Shown here: piece by piece, positions 20 through 5,009 of the stretch
Position numbering within the stretch: the stretch's first letter is position 1
How the letters are laid out: each line of letters begins with the position of its first letter
Source: JBHIBR01 sp046759145 [NCBI: Nitrospinota bacterium]
GTDB taxonomy: Bacteria; UBA8248
Length of the DNA stretch: 5,009 bases
Reading direction: 5' to 3'
Assembly (NCBI GenBank): GCA_046759145.1
Contig: JBHIBR010000164.1
Location: forward strand, 1-5,009
Made by a program: the position numbers and the translations under genes
The notes under the pieces: generated by a model
What the model saw: only the letters and a program-made list of their open reading frames with translations
Databases searched by the model: none
What the model was told of the DNA's origin: nothing

Positions 20-145
20 TCACCGTGCTGAAAAGGGTTTTGGGATGACTTCTAGATTGTCCGGCGTGAGCAGGGTCTTGGGGACCTTGTAGGCTACATC
101 CGCGGGCACGCGGTCGTTGCTGATGTAGTAGACGCCGTAGCGGAC
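20..145 (-). pseudogene. Out-of-frame C-terminal part of the TAXI receptor
   Basis: From 145 down to the TGA at 20-22, one alternative - strand frame encodes VRYGVYYISNDRVPADVAYK followed by about 20 further residues. The first part matches the usual TAXI C-terminal strand and helix (a [YF]xxxNDRVP-type segment). It joins the main frame if one base is added to the C4 run read on the - strand (G4 at 154-157 on +), giving a GPRPVVRYG join. Even so, the total is about 295 residues, somewhat short for the family. A second slip in the T4 run (AAAA at 31-34 on +) would keep the frame open past the window edge. This may be real gene decay or homopolymer errors in the assembly; the sequence cannot decide between them. 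Confidence 0.6.
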
Positions 146-906
146 GACCGGACGGGGCCCTTGAAGCCCTTCACATCGCGCAGATGCGGGTCCTTATCCC
201 GGGTGCAGGTCTGAATGCCGTAGAAGGGAAACTTGGCCGCGATCTTCTCGTACTCCGCCTGGGTGAGGCTCAGGAAGCGCACCGGCCGCCTCTGGGATGC
301 TTGGGTGACGGCGGTGATGGTGCAGGGGCTCGAGGCCGAGATGACCGCATCCAGCTGACGGTTGGCGAGGGCGCGCCCGAAGGCCGCGAAGTTCAGGTAG
401 TTGCGTTTCACCTTGTCGAACAGACCCAGCGCCGTCAAGAGGTTGCGGCTGTTGAGCTCGGTGCCGCTTCCCACCGGCCCCAGGTTCACCTTCTTCCCCA
501 CCAGGTCGCTGATCTTGTGGATGTCGGTGTCCTGGCGCGTCACGAAGATCTGCCCCTGGTCCAGCATCTTGCCCAGGACGAGCGTCTCCCGGGCCGGCTT
601 GCCCTTGAACGCCTTCCCCTTCCCGTGCCAGGCGTTGTAGAGGGTCGAGATGTGAGAAAGGCCAAAGTGCATGTCCTTGGTGCCGCCGATGAGGCGGGCG
701 TTCTCGCCCGAGCCCCGGGTGGCGACGCCGTCGAAGCGTATCCCGAGGTTGGCCTCATTGAGCACCTTCACGGCGCCACCCATGGAGATGAACCAGTTGC
801 CCCCAGCCGGGCCCGTGGCGTGCTTGTAACGCTTCTGGGCGGCGGCCGGCCCGGCGAGCAACGCCAGGCCCACGATTACTGCCAGAACAACTGCTACTCT
901 ACGCAT
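94..906 (-). CDS. TAXI family TRAP transporter solute-binding receptor, C-terminus frameshifted
   Basis: Periplasmic receptor of a TRAP transporter of the TAXI class, which captures small organic acids and hands them to the membrane subunits. I start it at 906 rather than at the in-frame ATG at 945, because GGAGGAG lies just upstream and MRRVAVVLAVIVGLALLAG then opens a signal peptide (residues 1-23, cleavage after AAA). The mature part has the TAXI hallmarks: ATGPAGGNWF (30-39), RGSGENARLIGG (64-75), a FKGKP segment (100-104), and DLVGKKVNLGPVGSGTELN (134-152). Reading is normal to about residue 251. The last 20 or so residues of this frame (rich in S, T and A) are unlike the family, and the expected continuation (VRYGVYYISNDRVPADVAYK) lies in another frame, which stays open to a TGA at 20-22. 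The intact protein would therefore be longer. Divergent from the aromatic genes; no membrane TRAP subunits are visible, and the ligand is unknown. Confidence 0.85.
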   Translation of the reverse strand: MRRVAVVLAVIVGLALLAGPAAAQKRYKHATGPAGGNWFISMGGAVKVLNEANLGIRFDGVATRGSGENARLIGGTKDMHFGLSHISTLYNAWHGKGKAFKGKPARETLVLGKMLDQGQIFVTRQDTDIHKISDLVGKKVNLGPVGSGTELNSRNLLTALGLFDKVKRNYLNFAAFGRALANRQLDAVISASSPCTITAVTQASQRRPVRFLSLTQAEYEKIAAKFPFYGIQTCTRDKDPHLRDVKGFKGPVRSSATASTTSATTACPRM

Positions 907-910
907 GGCA

Positions 911-917
911 CTCCTCC
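911..917 (-). promoter_or_regulatory. Ribosome binding site of the TAXI receptor gene
   Basis: GGAGGAG on the - strand, 4 bases from the ATG at 906. It selects this start over the upstream in-frame ATG at 945, and the signal peptide at the chosen N-terminus agrees. Confidence 0.7.
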
Positions 918-1051
918 CTCTCCCTGGGAAGCAGGCGACAGGCACTCAGAGGTTCCAGCCGCCTCCCCCGGTCATCCCCCGCCTAGAATGTGCGGGTATC
1001 CGAAGCAGCCCCACTCCCTCCTTGTTGCATATTATTGAAATCGTAGGAATC

Positions 1052-1288: not shown

Positions 1289-1322
1289 TCCTTTCGGTGA
1301 GACCTTTCGCAAGGGGGAAGGA
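1289..1322 (+). promoter_or_regulatory. Nested inverted repeat over the ribosome site of the cupin remnant
   Basis: TCCTT (1289-1293) can pair with AAGGA (1318-1322), enclosing CCTT-TCGC-AAGG (1303-1314). The 3' arm covers the purine-rich ribosome-binding stretch just before the ATG at 1326, so a folded leader could hide it. The stems are only 4-5 bp and may be chance. Confidence 0.2.
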
Positions 1323-1325
1323 ACC

Positions 1326-1649
1326 ATGGCGGGCAAGCCGACGGCATCCGATGAGGACCTCCAGAGGTTTTATGGGGAGGTGGAGAACCTCCACCTCGTT
1401 CCCTTGTGGAACATCCTCGCCCGGCTCGCCCCCCCCTGGGCCTGGCACGAACACGCGAGCGCCGAGGGGGAAGAGGCCGTCCTCTTCTCCATCCACGACA
1501 CGCCCGTCCTGGGGGCTCTGGGCCTCTACCGGGAAGAGGCCTACGAAGGAAACAGAGGCCACCAGCCAGTCACCGGCGCCTTCGCGTGGGGAGAGGGATG
1601 CGCGGCAAAGGGGGGTCGACCGCGGTTGGGCGTTGCTCGGTGGCGATGA
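1326..1649 (+). pseudogene. Gentisate 1,2-dioxygenase-like cupin protein, internally deleted remnant
   Basis: A 107-codon frame that joins the two ends of a much longer ring-cleavage dioxygenase. Residues 12-35 (LQRFYGEVENLHLVPLWNIL and on) resemble the N-terminal helix of gentisate 1,2-dioxygenase and related bicupins, in which PLW-x-x-LARL precedes the cupin core. From residue 36 the sequence jumps to PPWAWHEHASAEGEEAVLFS and the IHDTPVLGALGLYREE segment, which is the last cupin strand and C-terminal end of the same family. Family members are usually about 340-380 residues, so some 250-270 residues are missing, including the N-terminal cupin that carries the iron-binding histidines. The join lies on a run of eight C (1429-1436). 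The tail after about residue 85 looks like non-family read-through that overlaps the promoter region of the next gene. It keeps a start codon with upstream purine-rich AAGGGGGAAGGA. It cannot be an active dioxygenase; translation into a small protein is possible. Confidence 0.65.
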
Positions 1650-1728: not shown

Positions 1729-2007
1729 ATGTCATGCTATGCGCTCAACAAGGTCATCTACGAGCTCCAGTTTCCGGAGACGCGCGGCCGCTATCGCGCC
1801 AACCCCGACGCATTCCTCGGCCGGTATGACCTCGCCGAGGAGGAGGTCGCCGCCCTCCGCGGGGCTGACATCCGCGCCCTGTGGTTGCTGGGCGTGCACC
1901 CAATGCTGTTGCGCTTTTTCCAACCCTGGAACCGGATCTCCGACGATGATTTCCGCGCCGCCCTGCAGGGCCTCTCCTACCCCGGGTTAGCCAAACAGGA
2001 GGATTAG
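1729..2007 (+). CDS. LigA-like small subunit of a class III extradiol ring-cleavage dioxygenase
   Basis: 92-residue protein of the LigA family (protocatechuate 4,5-dioxygenase alpha subunit). In LigAB enzymes the small helical subunit packs over the active site of LigB and helps form the substrate pocket; it carries no iron ligand. Visible family features are YALNKVIYELQ (4-14), a RYRANPDAFLGRYDLAEEEVAAL stretch (21-43) and the highly typical LGVHPMLL motif (54-61). The C-terminal tail, FFQPWNRISDDDFRAAL, is acidic and probably helical. Length fits the free-standing LigA subunits, which are shorter than the Sphingomonas protein. It ends two bases before the LigB-like gene starts, so the pair is almost surely co-translated. 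The substrate is unknown: the family includes enzymes for protocatechuate, gallate and other catechol acids. Confidence 0.88.
   Translation: MSCYALNKVIYELQFPETRGRYRANPDAFLGRYDLAEEEVAALRGADIRALWLLGVHPMLLRFFQPWNRISDDDFRAALQGLSYPGLAKQED
1997..2002 (+). promoter_or_regulatory. Ribosome binding site of the LigB-like gene, inside the end of the LigA-like gene
   Basis: AGGAGG, 7 bases before the ATG at 2010 and within the last codons of the upstream gene. Position and strength support translational coupling of the two subunits. Confidence 0.75.
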
Positions 2008-2009
2008 CC

Positions 2010-2843
2010 ATGGCTGAGGTCGCCGCTGTATTCGCTGCGACCCACTCGCCTCTCCTTTTCCGCCGGGCCGATGACGTCGCGCCGGAGGTTCGAGAGAAGG
2101 TCTTCTCGGCCTATGAGCGGGTGGGTCAAACCTTGATGGAGCGAGGGGTGGAGGCGTTGGTCGTCTTCGCCAACGACCACCTCCAGGCCTTCTTCCTTGA
2201 CCGCTACCCGGCGCTTGCGGTAGGGGTCGCCTCGCGGTTTCGGCCCGTGGCAAGCCAGGATTGGCTGCCGGATGTTGAAGGAGGGCGGAAGGGCGACGAG
2301 GAACTCGGCCTCTACTTGGTGGGTGCACTGCGGAGCAGCGGTTTCGACCCCACCCTGTGCCATGAGCTCCCCCTCGACCACTCGGTGGTGGTGCCGCTCC
2401 ACCGGATGGGCGACCCCCCCATCCCAATCGTCCCCGTCTTGCAGAACTGCTTCGCGCCGCCGGTGGCGCCCGCGCGGAGGTCCTACGAGCTGGGGCTCGC
2501 CGTGCGGCGCGCGCTGGAGCGATACGACAAGGTGGGGCGGGTGGGCATCCTGGGCACGGGCGCGCCGGCCCACTGGGTCGGAACGCCCGAGCAGGGCCGC
2601 GTGGACGAGGTCTGGGACAAGGCGGCGATCGACCTGCTCCTCGAGGGGCGCGCCGAGCGGCTCTCGGCCTGGAGCCAGCAGGAGATCGATGCCGGCGGGG
2701 ACGGCGCCAACGAGATCCGCAACTGGATCGCGGCTGCGGCCGCGGCCGGAAACACCCGAGCGGAGCTCCGGGTCTATCAACCTGAGCCCATCTGGTTCTT
2801 GGGCGTGACGGTGCTGGAGTGGCCTGTGGGCCCGGCCGCTTAG
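2010..2843 (+). CDS. LigB-like catalytic subunit of a class III extradiol ring-cleavage dioxygenase
   Basis: 277-residue non-heme Fe(II) enzyme of the LigB family, which opens a catecholic ring next to its hydroxyls using O2. The whole active-site set can be read by comparison with Sphingomonas LigB. His12 in AATHSPLLF and His57 in FANDH are likely iron ligands, and Glu235 in GANEIRNWI is the third. His188 in ILGTGAPAHW is the likely catalytic acid/base. His124 in LPLDHSVVVPL is the conserved second-shell histidine. Length is normal for the family. The enzyme is cytoplasmic and expected to work as a complex with the LigA-like subunit encoded two bases upstream. Regiospecificity (4,5 or 2,3 cleavage) and substrate cannot be read from the sequence. 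The family also contains MEMO-like and other non-aromatic relatives, but the adjacent LigA partner argues for true ring cleavage. Confidence 0.9.
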   Translation: MAEVAAVFAATHSPLLFRRADDVAPEVREKVFSAYERVGQTLMERGVEALVVFANDHLQAFFLDRYPALAVGVASRFRPVASQDWLPDVEGGRKGDEELGLYLVGALRSSGFDPTLCHELPLDHSVVVPLHRMGDPPIPIVPVLQNCFAPPVAPARRSYELGLAVRRALERYDKVGRVGILGTGAPAHWVGTPEQGRVDEVWDKAAIDLLLEGRAERLSAWSQQEIDAGGDGANEIRNWIAAAAAAGNTRAELRVYQPEPIWFLGVTVLEWPVGPAA

Positions 2844-3002: not shown

Positions 3003-4037
3003 ATGGCCTTGGAGGCGGTGCGGGTGGCTTCGGTGGGGCTGGGGAGGTGGGCGAGCGTGCTGGCCGACGCCATCGGCCGGGGGGGGAAGCTTCGGCTGGT
3101 GAACTGCTTCACCCGCGATCCCTCCCGCCGCCGCGCCTTCGCCGAGCGCTACCGCTGCCGGGAGAGCGCGAGCCTGGAGGCCCTCGTGGCCGACCCCGAG
3201 GTGGAGGGGGTCATCCTGACCACCCCCAACCACCTCCACGCCGAGCACGCCGAGATGATCGCCGCGGGGGGAAAGCATCTCTACGTCGAGAAGCCCATCG
3301 CCCACACCCTCCAGGACGCCCGCCGGGTGGAGCGGGCCTGCCGGGAGGCGGGTGTGGTGCTGGCGGTGGGGCACAGCGCGCGCCGCCTCGCAGTGTGCGG
3401 GAGGCTCAAGGGTCTCCTGGAGAGTGGGGAGCTCGGCGAGGTGAACATGGCCGAGTCCAACTTCTCCACCGAGCGGGGCCTCGAGCTCACCCCCGAGAAG
3501 TGGCGCTACCACCAGCACCTCAACCCCACGGGGGCCCTCATCCAGCTCGGCATCCACCACGCCGACACCTACCGCTACCTCCTCGGGCCCATCGTGAGCG
3601 TGACGGCCCGCCTCAAGCGGCTTTGCACCAAGGGAGAGGTGGAGGACACCTGCCTCACCATCCTCGAGCACGCGGGAGGCCAGCTCACCTATGTGGGGGC
3701 GAGTTGGGCTTCTCCTTGGGCCTTCTACATGCAGGTTTACGGCGGCCGAGCCAACGCTCGGTTTCGCCTCACGCGCCAGCAGTGGCAGGACCCCTCCTGC
3801 GCCCCCGAGCCCATCCGCCTCTTCGTCGACCGCGAGCCCCTGGGGGAGGACACCTTTGAGGAGCCGCCCGGAGGGGACATGTTCCGTGACACCCTGGAGG
3901 ATTTCGCCGAGTGCGTGCGGGAGGGCCGGGAGCCGGAGGTGAACGGAGCGGTGGCGACCGAGGCCCTTGCGGTGGTCTTCGCCGCCCACCTCTCCTCGCA
4001 GGAAGGCCGGACGGTGGAGCTCAGAGAGCTGCTCTGA
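3003..4037 (+). CDS. Gfo/Idh/MocA family NAD(P)-dependent oxidoreductase
   Basis: 344-residue cytoplasmic dehydrogenase. Residues 5-120 form the Rossmann domain: VRVASVGLGRWASVL (6-20) is the dinucleotide loop in its GLGRW form. TTPNHLHAEHA (73-83) and YVEKPIAHTLQDA (94-106) are the classic family motifs, with Lys97 of EKP the usual catalytic or NAD-contact lysine. The C-terminal alpha/beta domain has LIQLGIHHADTYRYLLG (179-195), the G-x-H-x-x-D active-site motif, with Gln181 where many members have Asp. I prefer the ATG at 3003 over the in-frame GTG at 2970: GAGGG lies just upstream and the Rossmann fold starts at once. It follows ligAB after 159 bases. LigC, which oxidises the protocatechuate 4,5-cleavage product, belongs to this superfamily, so a role on the ring-cleavage product is reasonable. 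The EKP motif is closer to sugar-type members, however, and the substrate remains open. Confidence 0.88.
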   Translation: MALEAVRVASVGLGRWASVLADAIGRGGKLRLVNCFTRDPSRRRAFAERYRCRESASLEALVADPEVEGVILTTPNHLHAEHAEMIAAGGKHLYVEKPIAHTLQDARRVERACREAGVVLAVGHSARRLAVCGRLKGLLESGELGEVNMAESNFSTERGLELTPEKWRYHQHLNPTGALIQLGIHHADTYRYLLGPIVSVTARLKRLCTKGEVEDTCLTILEHAGGQLTYVGASWASPWAFYMQVYGGRANARFRLTRQQWQDPSCAPEPIRLFVDREPLGEDTFEEPPGGDMFRDTLEDFAECVREGREPEVNGAVATEALAVVFAAHLSSQEGRTVELRELL

Positions 4038-4139: not shown

Positions 4140-4736
4140 ATGAAGCTCGTTGTGGCCATCACGGGCGCGAGCGGAGTCGTCTACGCAGTTCGCCTCCTCG
4201 AGGCGCTGGAGGGGCACGAGGGGGTCGAGGTGCACCTCATCGTCTCGCGCAACGGGGAGCGGCTGCTGCGCCATGAGTGCGGCCTCTCGACGGAGGACAT
4301 CTCCCGACACGCCCACGTGGTCCACAGCCCCTCGGACATCGGCGCACGCCCCGCCAGCGGCTCGGCCCGCATGGATGCCATGGCCATCGTCCCCTGCTCG
4401 GTCAAGACGCTGGCCCAGATCGCCGCGGGCACGGGGGACAACCTGGTGGGCCGTGCGGCGGATGTGATCCTCAAAGAGGGCCGCAAGCTGGTCCTGGTGC
4501 TCCGGGAAGCTCCGTTCTCTTCCATCCACCTGGAGAACATGCTCAAGCTGGCCCGGATGGGGGTGACCATCCTGCCCGCCTCGCCCGGCTTCTACCACCA
4601 GCCGAAGACTTTCGACGACCTGGTGAACCACGTGGTGGGGAAGACTCTGGACTGCCTGGGGTTTGACCAAACCCTCTTTCCCCGCTGGGCGGGGCAGGCC
4701 CCGGAGCGCAAGGGCGGTCGGGGAGCCGAGGGCTAA
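4140..4736 (+). CDS. ubiX: UbiX-like flavin prenyltransferase
   Basis: 198-residue flavoprotein of the UbiX/Pad1 family. It joins a dimethylallyl group to reduced FMN to make prenylated FMN, the cofactor of UbiD-type reversible decarboxylases. Motifs appear in order: VVAITGASGVVYAVRLLEAL (4-23) with the FMN-binding GASG at 9-12; LIVSRNGE (33-40); VPCSVKTLAQIAAGTGDNLV (84-103) with Ser87; LVLREAPFSSIHLENM (119-134) with Arg122; LPASPGFYHQP (145-155) with Tyr152; and a C-terminal LFPRW (179-183) with Arg182, where prenyl-phosphate-binding Tyr and Arg are expected. The last 15 residues are a charged glycine-rich tail. No ubiD lies in the window, so the partner decarboxylase must be elsewhere. 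Next to ring-cleavage genes, a job in aromatic acid (de)carboxylation is as likely as ubiquinone synthesis; the sequence alone cannot separate these. Confidence 0.92.
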   Translation: MKLVVAITGASGVVYAVRLLEALEGHEGVEVHLIVSRNGERLLRHECGLSTEDISRHAHVVHSPSDIGARPASGSARMDAMAIVPCSVKTLAQIAAGTGDNLVGRAADVILKEGRKLVLVLREAPFSSIHLENMLKLARMGVTILPASPGFYHQPKTFDDLVNHVVGKTLDCLGFDQTLFPRWAGQAPERKGGRGAEG

Positions 4737-4769: not shown

Positions 4770-5009
4770 ATGCGGATGCAAGTGGCCTCAGGGGGGGCCC
4801 TCGACCAGAGGGTGGATGCGGCCATTCTCTTCGTCCCCGAAGCGAAGGCCCCGACGGGGCAGCCGGTCGCCGGACTGGCGCGAAGACCCTCCTCCCTTCG
4901 AGCCCCCGTGGGCAAGAGGGGCTCAGAAGAACCGGCCTTTTCGGGGTGGCCGGTGCCACTGGCCGCCCTGGACCGAAGCCTCGGGGGTCTCCTGGGAGAG
5001 CTCTGGGAG
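4770..5009 (+). CDS. Partial leucyl aminopeptidase-like protein (family M17, N-terminal domain)
   Basis: Open frame of 80 codons from an ATG with a good ribosome site to the window end; it lies 33 bases after the UbiX-like gene. The first residues, MRMQVASGGALDQRVDAAIL (1-20), then FVPEAKAP, resemble the beta-strand start of the PepA/leucyl aminopeptidase N-terminal domain. PLAALDRSLGGLLGELWE (63-80) is the typical following helix, whose family form is AALDxALGGxLxxL. The metal-binding catalytic domain would lie beyond the window. Between the two, about 30 residues rich in Arg, Pro and Ser (roughly 32-61) are longer than usual and do not look like the family. They may be an insertion or a local double frame slip. 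The start could also be the second Met (4776). PepA is a cytoplasmic peptidase, probably unrelated to aromatic catabolism. Confidence 0.6.
   Translation, partial: MRMQVASGGALDQRVDAAILFVPEAKAPTGQPVAGLARRPSSLRAPVGKRGSEEPAFSGWPVPLAALDRSLGGLLGELWE

Follow-up and report, generated by a model that had tools for sequence, protein, structure and literature searches.

Is the open reading frame at positions 1326-1649 of the 5,009-nucleotide stretch of DNA analyzed here (the window) a dioxygenase gene that has collapsed to its two ends, a short gene in its own right, or a product of faulty assembly? The sequence-only reading had taken it for a gentisate 1,2-dioxygenase-like gene reduced by an in-frame deletion. 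Read directly, the ORF runs on the forward strand for 107 codons in a single frame from an ATG start to a TGA stop, with residues 1-37 resembling the N-terminus and residues 34-87 the C-terminus of one family of full-length dioxygenases of the gentisate/5-aminosalicylate type, which have about 360 aa. The start codon, the ribosome-type site upstream, the run of eight C at 1429-1436 and the unbroken frame are all as that reading had described them. The run by itself is unremarkable, as the window has seven runs of at least six C or G. The parts of the ORF are as follows:

1311-1322, forward strand: AAGGGGGAAGGA, purine-rich, a plausible ribosome site (direct reading)
1326-1430, forward strand: dioxygenase N-terminal remnant, residues 1-35 (N-region profile, 38.0 bits; 47% identity to the N-terminus of L020)
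1428-1439, forward strand: join, GCC CCC CCC TGG, with the eight-C run at 1429-1436 and 275-276 codons gone (ten relatives compared)
1431-1586, forward strand: dioxygenase C-terminal remnant, residues 36-87 (C-region profile, 94.4 bits; NF049978; 74% identity to L010)
1587-1649, forward strand: run-on tail, residues 88-107, 20 codons followed by TGA (GC by codon position.75/.80/.60)

Searching the two halves separately, a check that the sequence-only reading had proposed, assigned both to a single bicupin dioxygenase family, correctly ordered and sharing one frame. The C half matched the NCBIfam families NF049978 (5-aminosalicylate 1,2-dioxygenase; E = 1.4e-15, profile positions 299-349 of 351) and TIGR02272 (gentisate 1,2-dioxygenase; E = 1.9e-6, positions 301-335 of 336) as well as PDB 3bu7 (E = 3.6e-11), with NCBIfam scores below the curated cut-offs (57.6 bits vs 650 for NF049978 and 27 bits vs 442.1 for TIGR02272). 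Among the 69 pattern-matched stretches in genome_contigs, 18 loci matched this half at 46-74% identity. The C-terminal identity that had been proposed thus holds, with a different extent: the match reaches residue 87, not 77, and only then gives way to the run-on tail. No Pfam model matched at E up to 1.

The N half was identified with a profile of the N-terminal region built from 28 intact relatives, with the window protein left out. Residues 1-37 scored 38.0 bits on this profile, against a maximum of 5.9 bits among 2000 shuffles of the same residues (822 of which scored at all) and 1.4 bits for the highest-scoring alternative frame of the window. The 28 relatives were chosen from 48 extracted frames; the 20 left out comprise five duplicates (L083, L087, L089, L093 and L096), 12 frames that lay on the wrong strand and so lacked the match, and three intact genes that failed the motif pattern (L024, L027 and L095). 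Four of the 28 (L011, L015, L021 and L022) have an N-terminus that is itself only weakly similar to the rest, scoring 5.6-25.8 bits when left out of the profile. One gene in the genome G011, designated L020, was matched twice by the window protein, at its start by residues 4-37 (47% identity, E = 1.1e-5) and at its end by residues 34-88 (63%, E = 4.9e-18). That the halves are unrelated sequences with a chance resemblance to the family is scarcely credible: the N half alone has no Pfam or NCBIfam hit with E of 1 or below, as chance resemblance would have it, but its profile score far exceeds those of the shuffles and of the other frames, and the gene whose N-terminus it matches at 47% identity gives the C-terminal match as well.

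What lies between the halves in intact genes is missing from the window. We tried to measure the gap in eleven relatives, of which L095 failed the site pattern; all ten measurable relatives have additional sequence separating the halves, 275 codons long in nine of them and 276 in L020. The remnant lacks both cupin barrels and so is no two-barrel protein with a three-histidine iron site, and a profile of the core gave no more than a 16.8-bit cross-match, between residues 34-73 and a similar motif of the first cupin. The loss of the iron-binding core claimed in the sequence-only reading is borne out by both results. In gentisate and salicylate dioxygenases the iron ligands are three barrel histidines (PMC10306065); with both barrels gone, ring cleavage by the remnant is not expected.

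At the join the window reads CTC GCC CCC CCC TGG GCC TGG. In L020 the N-terminal site is CTC GCG CCG GTC and the C-terminal site GTG CCC CCC TGG GCC TGG; other relatives have Pro-Pro (L016, L024 and L095) or one proline or none at the N-terminal site. None of the relatives inspected has eight C at either site, so the run appears to have been made by the join. The position of the join inside proline codons can also explain why the frame was kept. Microhomology-mediated deletion, the route that the sequence-only reading had suggested, is plausible, and the overlap argues for it weakly: the two sites of L020 have 3 nt in common in phase (more only if the parent gene had Pro-Pro at both), and across the 28 relatives the longest exact words found at both sites measure 5-9 nt, lengths compatible with a short-homology deletion but perhaps due to chance. 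The accessible part of PMC10292909 contains nothing on microhomology. We also considered and rejected a phase-variable switch at the eight-C run, since slippage there could not restore the core and the run is absent from both sites in the relatives inspected.

The tail beyond residue 87 suggests a second lesion. Many relatives stop a few residues past HQ-x-x-TG; L020 ends TTC GCG TAA, where the window has TTC GCG TGG followed by 20 more codons. Judging from these alignments, the stop was probably at 1587-1589 originally, if the gene ended like L020, or at 1590-1592 (now GGA), if its end was of the L010 type. GC content at the three codon positions is.66/.37/.86 and.75/.50/.85 in the two halves, and.75/.80/.60 in the run-on, which comprises only 20 codons; with third-position GC of.84-.92 in four neighboring genes (LigA, LigB, Gfo and UbiX), both halves are of coding type and the tail is not. 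From this non-coding composition, the tail was probably not coding until the stop was lost. Against a lost stop, TAA to TGG takes two changes, most of the relatives inspected end elsewhere than L020, and dioxygenase tails vary among relatives, that of L024 being longer.

We also asked whether the joined form occurs elsewhere. The sequence-only reading would lose ground if many relatives carried the same short protein as a conserved gene, and we found no such pattern. In the closest phylum tested, that of G011, 3 of 18 genomes matched the 107-residue protein (P0001), and none of the 18, all of them distant relatives, had an N-to-C fusion. In the class of G001, 49 of 148 genomes matched, again with no fusion among the matches listed; these reach E of about 1.4e-6, which is weaker than expected for a true copy of both halves, and none of them begins before residue 28, the match beginning there (G159) lying within a 367-aa frame. 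Plasmid records gave 27 matches, none of which spans 80% of the query in a single place, and viral_contigs gave no match to P0001. Five short or broken frames from the 148-genome class were fetched as candidate collapsed copies, a sixth (G152, 60 aa) being left out, and all five were rejected: L112 and L113 stop at contig ends, L111 is frameshifted, and L109 and L110 are C-terminal fragments with no N-to-C join. In L110 the fragment lies near a longer copy. Other genomes, then, do carry fragments of this dioxygenase family, but the form with both ends joined was seen only here. Among the papers listed from a limited open-access literature, judged by titles and the beginnings of abstracts, we found no collapsed gentisate dioxygenase of this kind.

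Taken together, these results make it very probable that the ORF is an ordinary, recent pseudogene of a gentisate/5-aminosalicylate-type bicupin dioxygenase, produced by internal in-frame deletion. A single deletion of about 825 bp would have fused the N-terminal helix segment with the final strand and tail of the second cupin. The join would fall within proline codons at both sites, probably through slippage or end-joining on the few C-rich bases in common, and the frame would have been kept by luck, with a probability of one in three that rises if proline codons were aligned in phase. Loss of the stop may date from the same period or be independent. The pseudogene reading gains from the broken gene next to it, described below, and from broken copies and fragments of the family elsewhere (L109, L110 and L111); against it, the retained frame and start and the well-conserved halves also fit a translated, constrained short protein.

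Besides the remnant, five genes were recognized in the window:

94-945, reverse strand: TAXI-type TRAP solute-binding protein gene, frameshifted near 139-150 (TIGR02122, E = 4.3e-35)
1729-2007, forward strand: LigA-type subunit gene, looks intact (PF07746, E = 8.9e-9)
2010-2843, forward strand: LigB-type class III extradiol dioxygenase gene, looks intact (PF02900, E = 7.7e-41)
3003-4037: Gfo/Idh/MocA gene, looks intact (Pfam/NCBIfam searches)
4140-4736: UbiX-type gene, looks intact (Pfam/NCBIfam searches)

The frameshift in the TAXI gene lies beside a GGGGCCC run. The coding sequence continues in another frame from 145 downward for 41 residues, ending about 40 residues short of three relatives (L105, L106 and L108); this continuation aligns to each of the three better than all 500 shuffles, whereas the scores of the end of the existing frame are reached by 76, 469 and 490 of 500 shuffles. 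Three further relatives were left out of this comparison, L103 and L107 for want of a usable frame and L104 because its frame was wrong. Two of the six recognized genes are thus damaged, which fits either local gene decay or imperfect assembly.

Among the genomes compared, no close relative with an intact copy of this locus was found. LigB relatives (E = 1e-40 or better) were present in 12 of the 18 genomes, with a best full-length identity of 65%, and Gfo had matches at E up to 1e-60 in all 18, with a best identity of 64%, so none of the 18 is close; a scan of genome_contigs with the LigB protein found no relative, and an alignment of nine sequences offered no stretch of sufficient conservation to serve as a query. 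LigA adjoins LigB in all 12 LigAB loci fetched (L058-L067, L071 and L072, three of them under 15 kb), and P0001, TAXI, Gfo and UbiX had no match in these loci (tblastn, E up to 1e-4). The gene order of the window consequently gave no intact reference copy, and we infer, rather than observe, an ancestral full-length gene at this place. Elsewhere, in Bacillus sp. OK048 (L027), a full-length bicupin dioxygenase gene (about 5059-6201) has a distant LigB homologue (31% identity, 1238-2047) about 3 kb away.

The main rival to the pseudogene reading is an assembly or amplification artefact, in which the genome holds the full gene and the contig lost the middle through misassembly or a chimeric amplified molecule. 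We regard this as unlikely, though less so than any other rival. Of the relatives that a record names, the nearest, L020, comes from a metagenome-assembled genome, so the window may too, and the TAXI frameshift beside its GGGGCCC run is what poor assembly might give. Collapse of an assembly graph is nevertheless improbable with exact words of only 5-9 nt common to the two sites in the 28 relatives, as these are well below usual assembler word lengths. An artefact would also have had to join the halves exactly in frame while four neighboring genes look intact, and the probably lost stop would count as a second, separate lesion of this gene.

A short protein with a function of its own, perhaps one whose N-terminal arm interacts with a full-length paralogue, would make sense of the intact start, ribosome-type site and frame and of the conserved residues in both halves, and a study of the related 5-nitrosalicylate dioxygenase describes the N-terminal region as mainly stabilizing the tetramer (PMC10306065). 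We nonetheless consider it very unlikely: a match joining both ends was found neither in the 18 genomes nor among the matches listed from the 148, none of the 27 plasmid records with a match spans 80% of the query in a single place, the tail has a non-coding composition, and the structural model is mostly of low confidence beyond one helix. More doubtful still is a specific version in which a microprotein of arm and tail, expressed from the fusion, enters the tetramers of an intact dioxygenase paralogue or competes within them and so lowers the activity of that paralogue; if true, deletion would have turned an enzyme into a regulator. From its signals the ORF could still possibly yield a small protein.

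The conservation of the halves gives some indication of age. In leave-one-out comparisons the C half scored 93.5-95.4 bits, against 71.9-113.8 bits for the 28 intact genes (17 of which scored higher), and the N half 34.8-39.6 bits, against 5.6-70.7 bits (23 of 28 higher). Because both lie within the range of intact genes, the loss looks recent or the remnant constrained, alternatives that these data cannot separate, and the scores would suit some decay as well as plain divergence. An AlphaFold2 model from an 11-sequence alignment (mean pLDDT 60.6, pTM 0.32) has a confident helix at residues 9-34, a weaker helix at 56-64 and no strand, and predicts a largely disordered remnant.

Compared with known systems, the remnant has the N-terminal segment and the C-terminal PPWAWHEH...DTPVxxALGLYREE...HQPVTG end of gentisate 1,2-dioxygenase (TIGR02272; PDB 3bu7 and 2d40) and of the 5-aminosalicylate 1,2-dioxygenase MabB (NF049978); unlike those enzymes, it lacks both cupin barrels and has 87 native residues instead of about 360. 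As a truncated and run-on ORF much shorter than its homologues, it resembles bacterial pseudogenes and gene fragments such as those sorted by Pseudofinder (PMC9336565), but its loss is internal and in frame, not terminal or caused by a frameshift. It resembles L109 and L110 in being a partial copy of the same family, and differs in that those keep only the C-terminal cupin or its end.

By itself the remnant matters little, as one decayed catabolic gene, and we see no sign of a novel type of system. Pseudogenes formed by internal in-frame deletion can resemble small intact ORFs and so may escape calls based on stops or frameshifts; a gene finder could call this one a small intact ORF. The well-conserved C-terminus is no ground for annotating the locus as a working gentisate dioxygenase. 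At the far end of the window, an open-ended forward-strand ORF (4770-5009) had no NCBIfam or Pfam match and no match in seven genomes; we take it to resemble the N-terminus of a leucyl aminopeptidase with an odd middle.
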